Source: Oscillibacter sp.
GTDB taxonomy: Bacteria; Bacillota; Clostridia; Oscillospirales; Oscillospiraceae
Direction of reading: 5' to 3'
Assembly (NCBI GenBank): GCA_014799925.1
Contig: JAAVHC010000080.1
Coordinates: 1 to 32,085 of the forward strand
DNA length: 32,085 nucleotides
In this document: positions 1,621 to 29,297 of the stretch, piece after piece
How the letters are laid out: the number at the start of each line of letters is the position of its first letter
Numbering within the stretch: the first letter of the stretch is position 1
The notes under the pieces: model-generated
Databases searched by the model: none
What the model saw: only the letters and a program-made list of their open reading frames with translations
What the model was told of the DNA's origin: nothing
Translations under genes and position numbers: made by a program

Positions 1621-2220
1621 GTTTTGCGGCTGCCGCCGCAGGGCGTTGCTTTTCCCTCGTGGGAAAAGTAACCAACGATTTTGCAACGGCCACATCGAGT
1701 GGCCGTGCAAAATTTAATTATTCATGACCACTCGATGTGGTCATGAATAATCGTAGCACGCTCAAGGGGCCATTGCCCCTTGAGAATCCCCAAATGTTTT
1801 GTTTTTTGCGCTACGACCGGGCTGGTCTAATTCTACCGACAGCACCGATCAGAACGCGCCGGATTGTTCGTCTACCCACTTGTTCTAACGAAAACCAGAG
1901 GGAGCTAAGCCGCTTCTGCAATCGGCTTCCAACCATCGCCATAAGACGCAGAGTTGACGAAAAAAACGGCAGACGCAGAGGCTTCCGCGAGAGTTGCTCA
2001 ACGACAAACCGTAGTGCGCATCCGCAGAAGCAAGCACCCCTGACGGCCCACGGCATCCCGCGGAACAGGCAGGCTGCCAGGTCGCAGCGTAAACAAATCA
2101 AAACATGAAGCGTCGCCTCCGGCGACGCCCAAGGGATTCTTAAACCGTAGGTTTAAGCGCGTTTTTGCCTACTTTTGCCGCGCGGCAAAAGTAGGCCGCC
2201 GTCCGGGCGCGGGAGCCCGG
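1621..2220 (+). repeat. Large hairpin-bounded intergenic repeat, copy 1 (about 600 bp)
   Basis: This fills most of the 702-bp gap between the LeuA-like gene and the TIM-barrel/ligase fusion. Landmarks in order: GCGGC hairpin (1626-1639), TTTTCC/GGAAAA hairpin (1650-1667), an inserted 76-bp palindrome pair (1677-1752), a CTCAAGGGG/CCCCTTGAG hairpin, the block GTTCTAACG (1882-1890) followed by AGCTAAGCCGCTTCT, a GGCGTCGCC/GGCGACGCC hairpin, a 13-bp stem GCCTACTTTTGCC/GGCAAAAGTAGGC (2167-2196) and CCGGGC/GCCCGG (2203-2220). The same order occurs at 14486-14941 and 24249-24764. Without the inserted pair this copy is about 524 bp, close to the 516 bp of copy 3. Open frames in it are poor and I see no gene. 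It could be a structured RNA or a non-autonomous mobile element. Confidence 0.8.
1677..1752. repeat. REPIN-like palindrome doublet inserted in the large repeat
   Basis: Two hairpins stand in inverted order, bounded by GATT and AATC. The first (1679-1712) pairs TTTTGCA and CGGCCAC with GTGGCCG and TGCAAAA, with a bulged A at 1686 and loop ATCGA. The second (1717-1751) is a perfect 15-bp stem with loop TCGAT, the reverse complement of the first loop. The other two large repeats lack this block at the matching point, so it looks like an insertion. A 77-bp relative lies at 29171-29247 and a single hairpin of the kind at 17110-17145. Confidence 0.8.
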
Positions 2221-11029: not shown

Positions 11030-11187
11030 ATTACGTTGACAATTAAATAATCGCCAACGTAATAACATGAAATTTAATGCCGTTTTGCTCGCCCCTTGCG
11101 GGGCAACCGCAAAACATGGCAAATATTACTTCGGCAATCTATAGACGCAGCAAACTTTTGGATTATTCAATTGCCGAAGTAATATTT
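11030..11187 (+). repeat. Three-hairpin 157-bp repeat, copy 1
   Basis: In order: ATTACGTTG/CAACGTAAT (11030-11063), a nested pair GTTTTGC/GCAAAAC around GCCCC/GGGGC (11082-11115), and a perfect 18-bp stem around CTTCGGCAAT/ATTGCCGAAG (11121-11138 with 11170-11187). An inverted copy of nearly the same length lies at 16831-16987. The third stem differs between copies (TTACTTCGG versus TTCCTTCGG) with matching changes in the opposite arm. It lies in the 5' flank of the MFS-GH2 gene and overlaps the end of the kinase gene. Confidence 0.85.
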
Positions 11188-13225: not shown

Positions 13226-14419
13226 TTACCGCCGGTTATACGCTTCAATTCCCTTGGCCAGCAGGTCCATGGCCCGCTCCAGGTCCTGCTGCTTGAGGAC
13301 GTAGGCGATGCGGATCTCGTTCTTTCCCTTGCCGGGGGTGGCGTAGAAGGGTTCGCCGGGGGCGAACATGACGGTGTCCCCATTGTCGTCAAAGTCCGTC
13401 AGCAGCCACTGCTGGAACGCGTCCGCATCGTCCACCGGCAGGGCGGCCATCAGGTAGAAGGCCCCTCTGGGACATTCGCAGATGACGCCGGGGATTTCCC
13501 TGAGCTTCGCCACCACGGTGTCCCGGCGGAGCCTGTACTCCTCCTTGACGGCGGCGAAGTACTCCGGCCCCACGTCGTACAGGGCGGCGGAGGCAATCTG
13601 GTCCAGGGTCGCTACCGCCAGGCGGGCCTGGCAGTACTTCAGCGCCTCGCCGATGAGCTCCCGGTTCCGGCTGATGATGCACCCGATCCTGGCTCCGCAG
13701 GCGGAGAACCGCTTGGACACGGTGTCGATGATGACCACGTTTTCCGCCGCATCCTCAAACTCGCCCATGGAGCGCAGGGGCTCGTTCTCCTCGTAAACAA
13801 ACTCCCGGTAGGCCTCGTCGCCAATGAGGAACAGATCGTGCTCCTTGGCAACGTCCACCATCATCCGCATCTCCTCCGGCGTCAGGACCGTGCCGGTGGG
13901 GTTGCCGGGGTTGGTACACATGATGGCGCGGGTGCGCTCGTTGATGGCCGCCTCGATCCTGGCCCGGTCGGCGTAGAAGTAGCCATCCTCCGGGGAGGTG
14001 GGGATGGGCCGGATCACCGCACCGCAGGTGTTCACCATGGTGTTGTAGTTGGGATAGAAGGGCTCGGGGATGATGATCTCGTCCCCGTTATCCAGAACGC
14101 AGTTGAAGACGATCTGGAGCGCTTCGCTGCCGCCGGTGGTGATGAGGACCTCCTCCTGGGTGAAGCGCATCCCGTGCTTCTCGTAGTACTTCAGGATGGC
14201 CTCGATGAGCGCCGGCATCCCCGGTGACTCGGAGTAGGCCAGCACCGGCTGGTGGAAGTTCCGCACGGCCTCGAAGTACTGGGACGGCGTGGCAATGTCC
14301 GGCTGGCCGATGTTCAGGTGGTAGATACGCTTCCCCGCCGCCTTGGCAGCCACCGCGTAGGGGTGGAACTTTCTCATGGGCGACAGGCCGCATTTTTTTA
14401 CTTTACTGGAAAATCTCAT
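13226..14419 (-). CDS. PLP-dependent class I/II aminotransferase
   Basis: A 397-aa fold-type I aminotransferase of the aspartate aminotransferase superfamily. The Schiff-base lysine is Lys236 in DTVSKRFSACGARIG, with GGSEA (96-100) for phosphate binding, NPGNPTG near 170-176, and DEAY (201-204) holding the pyridine nitrogen. It transfers an amino group between an amino acid and a 2-oxo acid; aspartate, aromatic or alanine specificity cannot be decided. The ATG has AAAAAGGAATGA upstream. The 536-bp gap behind its start (14420-14955) is filled largely by a large hairpin repeat, so its promoter would have to lie within or next to that repeat, or it is read through from the phosphoglucomutase gene. 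Confidence 0.9.
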   Translation of the reverse strand: MRFSSKVKKCGLSPMRKFHPYAVAAKAAGKRIYHLNIGQPDIATPSQYFEAVRNFHQPVLAYSESPGMPALIEAILKYYEKHGMRFTQEEVLITTGGSEALQIVFNCVLDNGDEIIIPEPFYPNYNTMVNTCGAVIRPIPTSPEDGYFYADRARIEAAINERTRAIMCTNPGNPTGTVLTPEEMRMMVDVAKEHDLFLIGDEAYREFVYEENEPLRSMGEFEDAAENVVIIDTVSKRFSACGARIGCIISRNRELIGEALKYCQARLAVATLDQIASAALYDVGPEYFAAVKEEYRLRRDTVVAKLREIPGVICECPRGAFYLMAALPVDDADAFQQWLLTDFDDNGDTVMFAPGEPFYATPGKGKNEIRIAYVLKQQDLERAMDLLAKGIEAYNRR

Positions 14420-14485: not shown

Positions 14486-14941
14486 TACTTTTCTTGCTCC
14501 GCCAAGAAAAGTAACAAAAGAAGGCGGCTTAAGAGACTCCGTCTCTTAAGAATCTCTCATTTATTTGTTTATTTGCGCTCCGACGATACCGGGTTTGATT
14601 CTATCTCCATGCCTTCGCTGGTGTGCCGGACTTCTGCGTCTACTCACTTGTTCTAACGGACCCAGAGGAAGCTCAGCCGCTTCTTCAATCGGTTTTCACC
14701 ACCGCCGGGAGAACCCAAAGCAATACGGTAGGGTCTGCCGACAACATCGTCGGTCAGCCGCTTCGCCCATCAAACCGCACTCGCAGCCCGGTTTAGTCCG
14801 GACAGACTACAGGAGGAGCGCAAAACAAATAACCCTCGTAATAAATCAGGGAGTCCAGAACCGTATGGTTCTGGTGGCTTTTTGCCTACTTTTTGTCCAT
14901 ACAAAAAGTAGGCGCGGGGGCCGGGGGCGCGCAGCCCCCGG
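14486..14941 (+). repeat. Large hairpin-bounded intergenic repeat, copy 2 (about 456 bp)
   Basis: It begins with TACTTTTCTTG/CAAGAAAAGTA (14486-14513), then a CTTAAGAGAC/GTCTCTTAAG hairpin, GTTCTAACG (14650-14658) with AGCTCAGCCGCTTCTTC, a block shared with copy 3 around CAATACGGTAGGGTCT (near 14720), a CCAGAACC/GGTTCTGG hairpin, GCCTACTTTTTGT/ACAAAAAGTAGGC (14884-14913) and CCGGGGGC/GCCCCCGG ending at 14941. Hairpin stems differ from copies 1 and 3 but pair fully. It lies between two minus-strand genes. No gene is visible in it. Confidence 0.8.
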
Positions 14942-14955
14942 ACGTAAAAGGTAGA

Positions 14956-16683
14956 TTATTTCTTCAGCGTATCCACCCACTCGCCATACTTCCTGATATT
15001 GGCATCCCTCTCCGCGGGGGTGGCCCCTTTGGTGAGGACATACACCTTGATCTTGGGCTCGGTGCCGGAGGGGCGGACGATGGCGGAGGTGCCGTCCGCC
15101 AGCTCAAAGCGGAGCACGTTGGAGCCGGAGAGCTCCATGACGGTCTTCTCGCCGGTGGCGCAGTCCACCACGCTGCCGTCGGAATAGTCCTTGAACTGGG
15201 CCACCTTCACGCCGGCGATCTCGGCGGGGGGATTCTCCCGCAGGGACTTCATCAGCCTGGCCATGTCGGCCAGGCCGTCCAGGCCGGGCATCACCAGATT
15301 GTGGGTCTTCTCGCCGTAGAAGCCGTGCTTCTCGCACAGGGCGTTGTAAGCGTCCAGGACGGTCATGCCTTTGGCATAGTAGTAAGCGGCCATCTCGGTG
15401 AGTAGCAGGGAGGCGGTGACGGCGTCCTTGTCCCGGACGAAGTCGCCGAACATGTAACCGTAGCTCTCCTCAAAGGAGAAAACGACCTTGCCCTCGCCGG
15501 AGCTCTCCAGGGCGTTCTTCTTCTCGGCGATGAACTTGAAGCCAGTGAAGGTGTCGTAGCACTGGGCGTTGTGGCTGTGGGCCACGGCCTTGGCCATCTC
15601 GGTGGTGACAATGGTCTTCAGGGCAACCGGGTTCTCGGGCAGCTTGCCGGTGCGCTCCATAGCCCCCAGCAGATAGTCCAGCAGCACCGCGCCGGTCTGG
15701 TTGCCGGTCATGACCTTGTACTCGCCGTCCTTGTCCCGTACCATGATGCCCACCCGGTCGCTGTCCGGGTCGGTGCCCAGGATGAAGTCCACGTCGTTGG
15801 CCTTCGCCAGGTCCACGGCCAGGTAGAAGCCCTCCGGATTCTCCGGGTTGGGGGACTGGACGGTGGGGAAATTGCCGTCGATGGCCATTTGCTGAGGCTC
15901 GCAGAGCAGATGCTTCACGCCCGCACGCTTCAGGGCCTCGGGCACCAGCCTGTGGCCGCAGCCGTGGAAGGGGGTGTAGACCAGCTTGAAGCTGTCCGCC
16001 ACGGCGGGGATGGCGTCCGCGTCGCAGGTCATGGCCATGACTTCCTTCAGGAACGCCTCGTCGGTCTCCTGGCCGATGACGGTGATCATACCCTTTTCCA
16101 CGGCCTCGTCATAGGGCATGGAGGTGATGCCGGTGAAGATGTCAATCTTCTCCAGCTCCCTGGCGATGGCATCGGCGTGCTGGGGCGGCAGCTGCGCGCC
16201 GTCCTCCCAGTAGACCTTGTAGCCGTTGTACTCCTTGGGATTATGGCTGGCGGTGACGTTGATGCCCGCCTGGCAGCCGTAGTGACGCACGGCAAAGCTC
16301 AGCTCCGGGGTGGGCCGCAGGGCGTCGAAAATGCGGACTTTGATGCCGTTGCCGGCGCAGACCTCGGCGGCGGCCCGGGCAAACTCCATGCCGTGGAGGC
16401 GGCAGTCCATGGCGATGGCCACGCCCTTTTCCCTGGCCTTCTCGCCCTCTGCGCAGATGACGTTGGCGAAGCCCTGGGTGGCGTGGCGGACCACGTAGAT
16501 GTTCATGTGGTGCAGGCCCATGGCCATGGTGCCCCGCAGGCCGGCGGTGCCAAATTCCAGGGGACCGTAGAACCGACTCTCGATCTCCTTGGGGTCGTCC
16601 TTGATGGCCTCCAGCTCCGCTTTCTCCTCCGCGGTCAACACGCCGCTGGACAGCCACTTCTGATATTCTTTCTGATAGTCCAT
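14956..16683 (-). CDS. pgcA: Phospho-sugar mutase (phosphoglucomutase/phosphomannomutase)
   Basis: A 575-aa alpha-D-phosphohexomutase that should interconvert glucose 1-phosphate and glucose 6-phosphate, or the mannose equivalents, linking glycolysis to UDP-glucose and envelope polymers. Motifs: TASHNP (144-149) with phosphoserine Ser146, metal loop DPDSDR (305-310), a sugar-recognition region with EESYGYMFGDF, and C-terminal phosphate loop RPSGTEPKIK. Length matches the Firmicutes PgcA group. The start has GAGGAGTGA upstream and a good promoter at 16730-16758. It ends 15 bp from a large hairpin repeat, which may also end its transcript. The gene name is by family resemblance; glucose versus mannose preference is not visible. 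Confidence 0.93.
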   Translation of the reverse strand: MDYQKEYQKWLSSGVLTAEEKAELEAIKDDPKEIESRFYGPLEFGTAGLRGTMAMGLHHMNIYVVRHATQGFANVICAEGEKAREKGVAIAMDCRLHGMEFARAAAEVCAGNGIKVRIFDALRPTPELSFAVRHYGCQAGINVTASHNPKEYNGYKVYWEDGAQLPPQHADAIARELEKIDIFTGITSMPYDEAVEKGMITVIGQETDEAFLKEVMAMTCDADAIPAVADSFKLVYTPFHGCGHRLVPEALKRAGVKHLLCEPQQMAIDGNFPTVQSPNPENPEGFYLAVDLAKANDVDFILGTDPDSDRVGIMVRDKDGEYKVMTGNQTGAVLLDYLLGAMERTGKLPENPVALKTIVTTEMAKAVAHSHNAQCYDTFTGFKFIAEKKNALESSGEGKVVFSFEESYGYMFGDFVRDKDAVTASLLLTEMAAYYYAKGMTVLDAYNALCEKHGFYGEKTHNLVMPGLDGLADMARLMKSLRENPPAEIAGVKVAQFKDYSDGSVVDCATGEKTVMELSGSNVLRFELADGTSAIVRPSGTEPKIKVYVLTKGATPAERDANIRKYGEWVDTLKK

Positions 16684-16830: not shown

Positions 16831-16987
16831 TGATTCCTTCGGCAAATAAATAATCCAAAAGCTTGCTGCGACTATAGATTGCCGAAGGAATCATTGCCAT
16901 GTTTTTCGGCTGCCCCGCAAGGGGCGAGGAAAACGGCATGAAATTTAATGTGATTACGTTGGCGATTATTTAATTGCCAACGTAATC
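16831..16987 (-). repeat. Three-hairpin 157-bp repeat, copy 2 (inverted)
   Basis: This is the inverted counterpart of 11030-11187. TGATTCCTTCGGCAA (16831-16845) pairs with 16879-16893, then come the CCCCGC-AAGGGG hairpin flanked by GTTTTTC/GGAAAAC, and TGATTACGTTG/CAACGTAATCA (16951-16987). The loop AATCCAAAAG followed by TGCTGCG is conserved between copies. It lies in the 646-bp gap 16684-17329 between two divergent promoters and overlaps neither gene. Confidence 0.85.
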
Positions 16988-17100: not shown

Positions 17101-17247
17101 GTTTTGCGGATTTCGCAATGGCCGCATCGAGCGGCCGTGCGAAATTGAGTTCTGCGCAGCCGGTCAATGCGGCCGCTGCGGAATCGCGGCTGCCGGGACA
17201 GCCGTTCGGCGAAAGCCGGATGACCGTCCTCAAGCGGCGGGCAAAAC
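17101..17247 (+). repeat. Structured repeat inside the SLH gene leader
   Basis: GTTTTGC (17101-17107) can pair with GCAAAAC (17241-17247). It encloses an ATCGA-loop hairpin (17110-17145; GGCCGC/GCGGCC with a bulged A) of the family at 1677-1752 and further GC-rich inverted repeats. A later CCTGCG/CGCAGG hairpin lies near 17273-17290. The whole block is transcribed upstream of the SLH gene, so it could affect its expression. I see no match to a riboswitch I know. Confidence 0.6.
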
Positions 17248-24190: not shown

Positions 24191-24248
24191 CGGGACACCT
24201 CCTTCTGATTGCGGGGGCTCCGCCCCCGCGGCCTCAATTCCAAAATCG

Positions 24249-24764
24249 GTTTTGCGGCTGCCGCCGCGGGACGGGGCCTACTTTTCCCTTGCAGGAAAAG
24301 TAGCAAAAGTGCCCTCAAGGGGGCCTGCCCCCTTGAGAATCCCCGAATGATCTATTTATTTTCGCTACGACGTACCGGGTTTAGTTCTGCCCAAGTGCCT
24401 ACCCAAATGCGCCGGCGCCTATCGTCTACCCACGAGTTCTAACGAGAGCCAGAAGAAGCTAAGCCGCTTCTCGGTCTGCTGCCTGGCCATCGCCAGAACC
24501 GCGAAGTTTTACGCCGGGAGGACCCAAAGCAATACGGTAGGGTCTACCGACGACCACACTGAAATAGACGCAGAAGAGGAACGAAGCGGACGGCAGTACG
24601 GTAAACAAAACCAGACTGTGCCACGGGCGCAAACAAATAACCCCCGTAATAAGGTGTCGCCTCCGGCGACGCCTTAAGGGGTCCAGGACCATTGGTCCTG
24701 GCGCGTTTTTGCCTACTTTTGCCGCGCGGCAAAAGTAGGCCGTCGTCCGGGCGCGGAAGCCCGG
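24249..24764 (+). repeat. Large hairpin-bounded intergenic repeat, copy 3 (about 516 bp)
   Basis: It starts with GTTTTGCGGCTGCCGCCGC, identical to copy 1, then CTTTTCC/GGAAAAG, CTCAAGGGGGC/GCCCCCTTGAG, GTTCTAACG (24436-24444) with AGCTAAGCCGCTTCT, CAATACGGTAGGGTCT (near 24530, shared with copy 2), GGCGTCGCC/GGCGACGCC-type and CCAGGACC/GGTCCTGG hairpins, GCCTACTTTTGCC/GGCAAAAGTAGGC (24711-24740, identical to copy 1) and CCGGGC/GCCCGG ending at 24764. It separates rplI from dnaB. No gene is visible in it. Confidence 0.85.
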
Positions 24765-24814
24765 AAGTTTTGTAACGAAACAATTCCCGTTTGCCGCACG
24801 AAGTGCAGGAGAAA

Positions 24815-29134: not shown

Positions 29135-29297
29135 GCCGTTTTACTCGCCGCCGTAAACGGCGGCAACCGTGATTCTGCAACAGCCGCATCGAGCGGCTGT
29201 GCAGAATTGAATTTCGCATGACCACTCGATGTGGTCATTGCGAAATCCGTAAACATGGCGCATATTACTCCGGCCTTTTAGCTCGGAAGTAATATTA
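29135..29297 (+). repeat. Mosaic repeat: 157-bp-type element interrupted by a REPIN-like unit
   Basis: GCCGTTTTACTCG at 29135, a GCCGCCGT/ACGGCGGC hairpin and CAACCG match the middle of the three-hairpin repeat. The matching right side resumes as GTAAACATGGC (29249) and TATTACTCCGG, followed by CGGAAGTAATA, ending at the stop of the ydcF-like gene. Between them lies the 77-bp unit 29171-29247. GTTTTAC/GTAAAC can still pair across the insertion. Confidence 0.7.
29171..29247. repeat. REPIN-like palindrome doublet, second copy
   Basis: Bounded by GATT and AATC like the unit at 1677-1752 and 1 bp longer. Left hairpin: ATTCTGCA, bulged A29180, CAGCCGC, loop ATCGA, GCGGCTG, TGCAGAAT. Right hairpin: ATTTCGCA, TGACCAC, loop TCGAT, GTGGTCA, bulged T29238, TGCGAAAT. 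Stem bases differ from the first copy with compensating changes, while loops, bulge and ends are kept. Confidence 0.8.

Follow-up and report, generated by a model that had tools for sequence, protein, structure and literature searches.

The locus at position 1,677 of the window (the whole 32,085-nucleotide stretch of an Oscillibacter sp. genome analysed here) raises the question of whether a mobile double hairpin comparable to the REPINs of Proteobacteria exists in a Gram-positive genome, and what could have moved it.

A doublet of inverted hairpins in the window

The element, called D in the following, is a doublet of 76–77 nt present in three copies in the window (Table 1). Its layout is GATT-hairpin-spacer-hairpin-AATC, with loops ATCGA and TCGAT. 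Copies 1 and 3 had been described in an earlier, sequence-only reading, and both were recovered at the same positions as inverted hairpins with these loops; the decayed copy 2 had been overlooked. Folding as DNA clearly separated copies 1 and 3 from shuffled sequences (z-scores of −10.4 and −8.8, respectively), none of 200 shuffles being as good for either. The single bulged base at a fixed place, also part of that reading, holds for most hairpins: it is missing from hairpin 2 of copy 1, and among the 202 hairpins parsed out of 117 D copies it is an A in 161, a G in 9, a T in 1 and absent in 31.

Table 1. Positions of D, its host repeats, neighbouring genes and examples of element B
Feature	Position	Strand	Remarks
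D copy 1	1677..1752	.	76 nt; within large repeat 1, host-repeat type T; 98.5 bits
Hairpin 1 of D copy 1	1678..1713	.	Loop ATCGA 1694-1698; extra A at 1685/1686
Hairpin 2 of D copy 1	1717..1751	.	Loop TCGAT 1732-1736; perfect 15-bp stem, bulge-free
D copy 2	17109..17185	.	Decayed; host-repeat type W; 82.5 bits; fold z −4.1
D copy 3	29171..29247	.	77 nt; host-repeat type W; 103.7 bits; extra base in each hairpin
Hairpins of D copy 3	29172-29207 and 29211-29246		Extra A at 29179/29180; extra T at about 29239
Type T repeat without D	24294..24322	+	Empty site for copy 1
Another D-free type T repeat	14504..14537	+	Orthologous intergenic space in relative G018 (L045) with two D
Type W repeat without D	11079..11120	+	Empty site for copies 2 and 3
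Another D-free type W repeat	16896..16937	+	
Large intergenic repeat, three copies	1590-2225, 14490-14930, 24240-24770		Roughly 450-640 bp; several hairpins; ends approximate
Type W repeat, about 157 bp	11030-11183 and 16833-16986		Three consecutive hairpins; itself dispersed
Aminotransferase-like gene	13226-14419		Name assigned by eye
Phosphomutase-like gene	14956-16683		Name assigned by eye
B examples, own genome	L025:944-1000; L029:1057-1113; L035:945-1000		

Occupied and empty sites

All three copies are embedded in intergenic repeats of other kinds. The earlier account of these host repeats and of their empty sites was confirmed, types T and W being each present in the window in two D-free copies. 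By visual inspection, the stems of type W show matching differences between copies. A lack of polymorphic empty sites in relatives had been named beforehand as a ground for giving up the proposal. Such a site was found between the aminotransferase-like and the phosphomutase-like gene, where the type T repeat is D-free in the window while the orthologous space of G018 holds two D. Judged by sequence comparison, this is the cleanest presence/absence case for D.

In all DNA examined, 117 unique copies of D were collected, of which 107 could be sorted into 64 flank types, the other 10 having no 40-base flanks. D-free versions were found for 26 of the 64 types, with up to 4 substitutions tolerated per side, some weak alignments and several flank types belonging to one host repeat. 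On reading, the occupied and empty types seem to represent about a dozen unrelated host sequences. One of these (GCCCC^GGACC) shows several different insertion points of D, and the independent insertions are fewer than 64 since many flank types are common to one host repeat. The REPIN-like layout and a past mobility of D are supported.

The explanation favoured here, with moderate confidence, takes D for a non-autonomous mobile element of DNA with two hairpins and a REPIN-like layout, which was moved in trans as a folded single strand and then multiplied mostly in a passive manner. D would have inserted into pre-existing intergenic repeats, with its stems held near-perfect in Watson-Crick pairing by compensatory change. 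An enzyme supplied in trans would cut and join the folded strand; it would not be encoded in the own genome as a recognisable Y1 transposase and may have been lost, be visiting or be of another kind. Most copies would then multiply as the surrounding larger repeats are copied or converted.

The junctions speak in part against this explanation. When occupied and empty sites were aligned by eye, D was seen to bring 0–4 further bases rather than to join at a constant position, a less orderly result than would be expected of an enzyme. Direct repeats and flank composition were analysed in 47 of the 64 flank types, split or decayed copies being omitted. No flush direct repeat of 4–9 bp was present at the ends of D in any of the 47 types. 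A flush 3-bp repeat occurred in 3 of 47 (two in repeat W, one in another repeat), against 0.8 in shuffles, 23 of 500 of which reached three; a short duplication is thus possible at some sites, which also has to be set against the favoured explanation, and no consistent target-site duplication was seen. Bacterial DDE-type MITEs are likewise short, palindromic and non-autonomous; D differs from them in lacking a consistent, fixed-length duplication. The flanks of D are pyrimidine-rich on the left and purine-rich on the right in the same 47 types.

Targeting of hairpin loops by D was considered and rejected. An outer stem of at least 6 was present in 13 of 64 flank types, compared with a shuffled mean of 5.2 (0/300 as high), but the folds were unsupportive: in folded joined flanks D fell in the apical loop in 15 of 45 cases with 10.2 expected (p about 0.06), and in 10 of 45 with 9.5 expected after trimming 2 bases from each side. 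The corresponding figure for the second element, B (see below), was 3 of 11 with 2.5 expected, and loop targeting is not claimed.

Family size and host range

A blast search of the own genome with copy 1 gave 61 matches, corresponding to about 40 places as counted by hand; some of these are split or ended by contig edges, and copy 2 is not among them. A covariance model of D, built on the 30 copies known at that time (29 distinct; 23 from the own genome, 7 from relatives), gave 115 strand-wise matches, with two of the places listed being new relative to blast. As the doublet reads almost alike on the two strands, so that most copies match on both, the total is probably roughly 55–60 places. 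The idea that only the copies first noticed exist was clearly contradicted, since many are present in the genome and in the genus.

Among 60 relatives searched by blast with copy 1, nine were positive including the own genome, every one of the same genus. The covariance model detected D in 13 of 25 congeners. With stricter filters, a family sample of 400 genomes from 106 genera gave six carriers, all of this same genus, and no D in the 105 other genera. In these model searches only part of the first-look candidates was scored per genome (150 in the genus search and in that for element B, described below, and 11 in the family sample). The numbers obtained are therefore minimum values, and weak copies may be present in genomes scored as non-carriers. 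As far as these searches reach, the D family is confined, among the sampled relatives, to one genus of gut Oscillospiraceae.

In public assemblies, 65 stretches with a matching hairpin were found, belonging to metagenome-assembled Oscillospiraceae or Oscillibacter or labelled as Clostridia or uncultured bacterium; one contig carries a Bacteroides label and is taken to be mis-binned. No match was obtained in viral contigs with one hairpin pattern, nor in plasmid and phage records by blastn with one copy as query. The genomes are mostly incomplete metagenome assemblies, in which short repeats may be mis-joined, and this too has to be held against the favoured explanation.

DNA palindromes rather than RNA structures

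In the alignment of 29 distinct copies, 97.2% of 870 cells were paired, 18 of 30 pairs were changed on both sides and 93 cells were double changes. None of 500 shuffles reached the paired percentage, either double-change count or the covariation score, while the number of further pair types was unexceptional (85/500 shuffles). The 202 parsed hairpins comprise 3030 pairs, of which 2977 are Watson-Crick, 15 are G-T (0.5%) and 24 are A-C. A constraint at the RNA level would be expected to tolerate G-U pairs above the level found here, as structured RNAs typically do. The strong covariation together with the near absence of G-T pairs points to palindromes kept perfect in DNA, and thus to DNA hairpins rather than RNA.

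A structured RNA element, either a terminator or an mRNA stabiliser copied for its function, is very improbable, with G-T pairs no more frequent than A-C. It would agree with D being intergenic where cases were inspected by eye, and with 1 of 20 resolvable places lying between divergent genes, a count based on a rough and unreliable gene call. The gene context is difficult to score in this GC-rich DNA, where 16 of 32 copies seemed to overlap an open frame of at least 150 aa, some of them being intergenic by eye. The window gave no Rfam match at gathering scores, and D-free versions of the host repeats exist, both of which argue against an RNA function.

Spread with the host repeats

Distances were compared among 87 copies (2 without genome assignment). 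Copies that share a flank type across genomes differed by 0.072 on average (n = 32 pairs), copies from different flank types of one genome by 0.142 (n = 484 pairs). By this measure, copies of D resemble those in the same host repeat more than those in their own genome. Such closer kinship by host repeat suggests that much of the increase of D was passive, by copying or conversion together with the larger repeat, in other words by hitchhiking. An identical 77-base D was also found in G017 and G023, two species, with unrelated flanks, and it is suggested that D also jumps.

Lone D hairpins linking the halves of two different host repeats were observed in three loci (L037:1000-1038, L039:1000-1038 and L044:1000-1038). 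They are either recombination products or assembly joins.

It is rather unlikely that D spread with no dedicated enzyme at all, hairpin DNA having been picked up at breaks or in template switching and then distributed by recombination between host repeats. The variable junctions with no consistent duplication, the tracking of host-repeat type and the single-hairpin hybrids of L037, L039 and L044 would all fit such a process. Full-length GATT/AATC doublets at about a dozen unrelated host sequences, as read by eye, do not, nor does the blunt entry of the sister element B described below.

Search for a transposase

The sequence-only reading had linked D to RAYT-like Y1 transposases and had advised looking for such a gene flanked by single hairpins. 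A search for Y1 transposases (PF01797) gave no match in the own genome at a cut-off as loose as E<=10, with a positive E. coli control; at 97.9% completeness, the assembly may have missed a gene. Y1 matches were obtained in 5 of 25 congeners, four of these being D carriers; the proposal had been open to refutation by a general absence of Y1 transposases from carriers, and this absence was seen in 9 of the 13, in incomplete assemblies, the remaining 4 having a match. Five Y1 proteins of the genus were tested (one per genome, from seven matches in all, three entered as domain fragments). All five were of IS200/IS605 type and none reached the RAYT cut-off, and D was present at one of the five Y1 loci searched, on one side only. 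A host-encoded Y1 transposase, RAYT or other, thus found no support as the mover of D.

That D is a true REPIN, moved in the recent past by a RAYT since lost from the own genome or lying in its unassembled part, is unlikely. E. coli genomes without a RAYT gene still carry REPINs, according to excerpts of one study (PMC8049555), so the absence of RAYT weakens such an origin without eliminating it. Its layout, compensatory stems and fixed-place bulge would fit, and the completeness given above leaves room for a missed gene. Against it stand the nine carriers with no Y1 match, the IS200 nature of the five proteins and the missing GTAG-type tag, the bases ATT at this place being paired in the stem.

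IS200-type enzymes are common in Clostridia, with other subclasses sparse and concentrated in other phyla, in the part of a TnpA-Y1 survey that was consulted (PMC6006769). In G018, D and an IS200 that ends in hairpins of its own lie, by eye, in one loop of a larger inverted-repeat element starting AGAACCTGTATTCA (L068:1236-2066). It is improbable that D is a miniature element derived from IS200 and mobilised by the TnpA of the IS200 present in some relatives. This origin draws on the arrangement in G018, in which the IS200 gene starts about 150 bp from D, so that one kind of site served both D and a genuine Y1 element. The ends of D are not identical to resident IS200/IS605 hairpins, the end hairpins of the G018 IS200 (the one compared in detail) being different and unrelated to D by eye. 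Moreover, D is absent at the other four Y1 loci searched, and most carriers, including the own genome, gave no Y1 match.

Other candidates were sought around D. The surroundings of the D copies comprised 727 stop-to-stop open frames of 90 aa or more; clustering of these by blastp gave no gene recurring beside D, and no moving enzyme was identified, which counts against the favoured explanation. The clusters that did recur were, by eye, translations through repeats or orthologous neighbours, with no transposase. IS110 (PF02371) showed no association with D: it is present in 8/13 carriers and 5/12 non-carriers, once in the own genome, and is absent from the D-rich genomes G008, G015 and G017.

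In prophage-like contigs, one from a Bacteroides-labelled MAG, D is found a short distance upstream of a HUH Rep gene of phage type, family PF23343 (L146:3163-3239 and L155:6538-6614); such contigs are a possible route of transfer between hosts. These two cases would be in line with mobilisation of D as an origin-like hairpin by the phage rolling-circle Rep, which is scarcely credible. An apparent association in a protein search (6/13 carriers, 0/12 non-carriers) was not maintained with the family model (7/13 and 5/12), and D was present at none of the 8 loci of the former and none of the 15 Rep-like loci of the latter.

A second doublet family

A second element, B, measures 55–58 nt, has the ends CGTG/CACG and two hairpins, and splits several D copies exactly at ATC^GA of the hairpin loop. 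It gave no match in the window. In the own genome, 19 strong matches were found (E below 1e-7), and in 13 of them, with flanks read by eye, B lies in the loop of a D hairpin: doublets account for 12 cases, two of these ended by contig edges, and a single-hairpin remnant for one. At least four different D contexts were hit, so that the presence of B in D loops does not reflect one event. Entry was blunt at C^G in all 11 distinct contexts left after merging similar ones, D loops included; one copy outside this set entered at C^A (L153).

In some places the sites of B and D are no more than a few bases apart, as at GCCCC^GGACC and in the TTTTTCCC^ACGTACACG repeat. Such sharing of spots hints at a common mechanism without demonstrating one. 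It is put forward tentatively, as possible but not likely, that D (GATT...AATC) and the unrelated B (CGTG...CACG) were moved to the same intergenic-palindrome spots, B also into the D loop at TC^GA, by one shared non-Y1 enzyme, which would constitute a RAYT-independent system of REP mobilisation.

Which enzyme moves RAYT-less REP-type elements was left open, as stated for CGTC REPs in the consulted part of one report (PMC3733652). The genus studied here offers two co-resident doublet families with many copies, host repeats free of them and closely related carriers and non-carriers, which makes the question testable by genome comparison and by in vitro nicking of defined hairpins.

Comparison with REP-type elements

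The REPIN-like character proposed at the outset is borne out by the two inverted hairpins with GATT/AATC ends forming one unit, by their dispersal in many copies and by the occupied and empty sites. It does not extend to the transposase and the tag: in place of an unpaired GTAG-type tag at the hairpin foot D has GATT with ATT paired in the stem, its hairpins were not found flanking a transposase gene, and no RAYT (class 2 Y1) was found in the incomplete genomes of the genus. D thus has the layout of a REPIN but, judged by RAYT and tag, does not qualify as one; it is a variant among the REPs that lack a RAYT.

As far as the consulted excerpts describe them, REPINs and BIMEs share with D the two short imperfect inverted hairpins, compensatory stem changes, dispersal in many copies, the occurrence of lone hairpins and the insertion of elements in or beside one another (PMC3116915, PMC8049555, PMC2817692). 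D differs from them by GATT instead of GTAG, mostly paired, by a spacer of about 3 bases, by carriers that were RAYT-free in searches and by being hosted in larger repeats.

CGTC-tagged REPs without a known transposase, and REP dimers inside palindromes, were reported for Proteobacteria, Cyanobacteria and others (PMC3733652); the words Firmicutes, Clostridia and Gram-positive are all absent from the main text of that report. Going by its excerpts, D resembles these REPs in its head-to-head dimers, loops of 4–5 bases, lack of a known dedicated transposase and location of some dimers in palindromes. They are defined by a CGTC, TGTC or CCTC tag, a stem of 8–9 bp and a CCA-like tail, and D departs from this in its GATT ends, 15-bp stems, fixed-place bulge and Oscillospiraceae host, and B in its tag CGTG. 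In the open-licence literature, nothing relevant on REPs or REPINs in the Oscillospiraceae clade was retrieved by title or abstract; these limited searches agree with the earlier remark that no well-described equivalent exists in the clade.

Small repeated hairpins and double hairpins that are thought to be mobile are also described, in the part of the source consulted, for mitochondria (PMC2800124). They differ from D in residing in organelle genomes and have no sequence link to it; the likeness lies in the repeated hairpin form.
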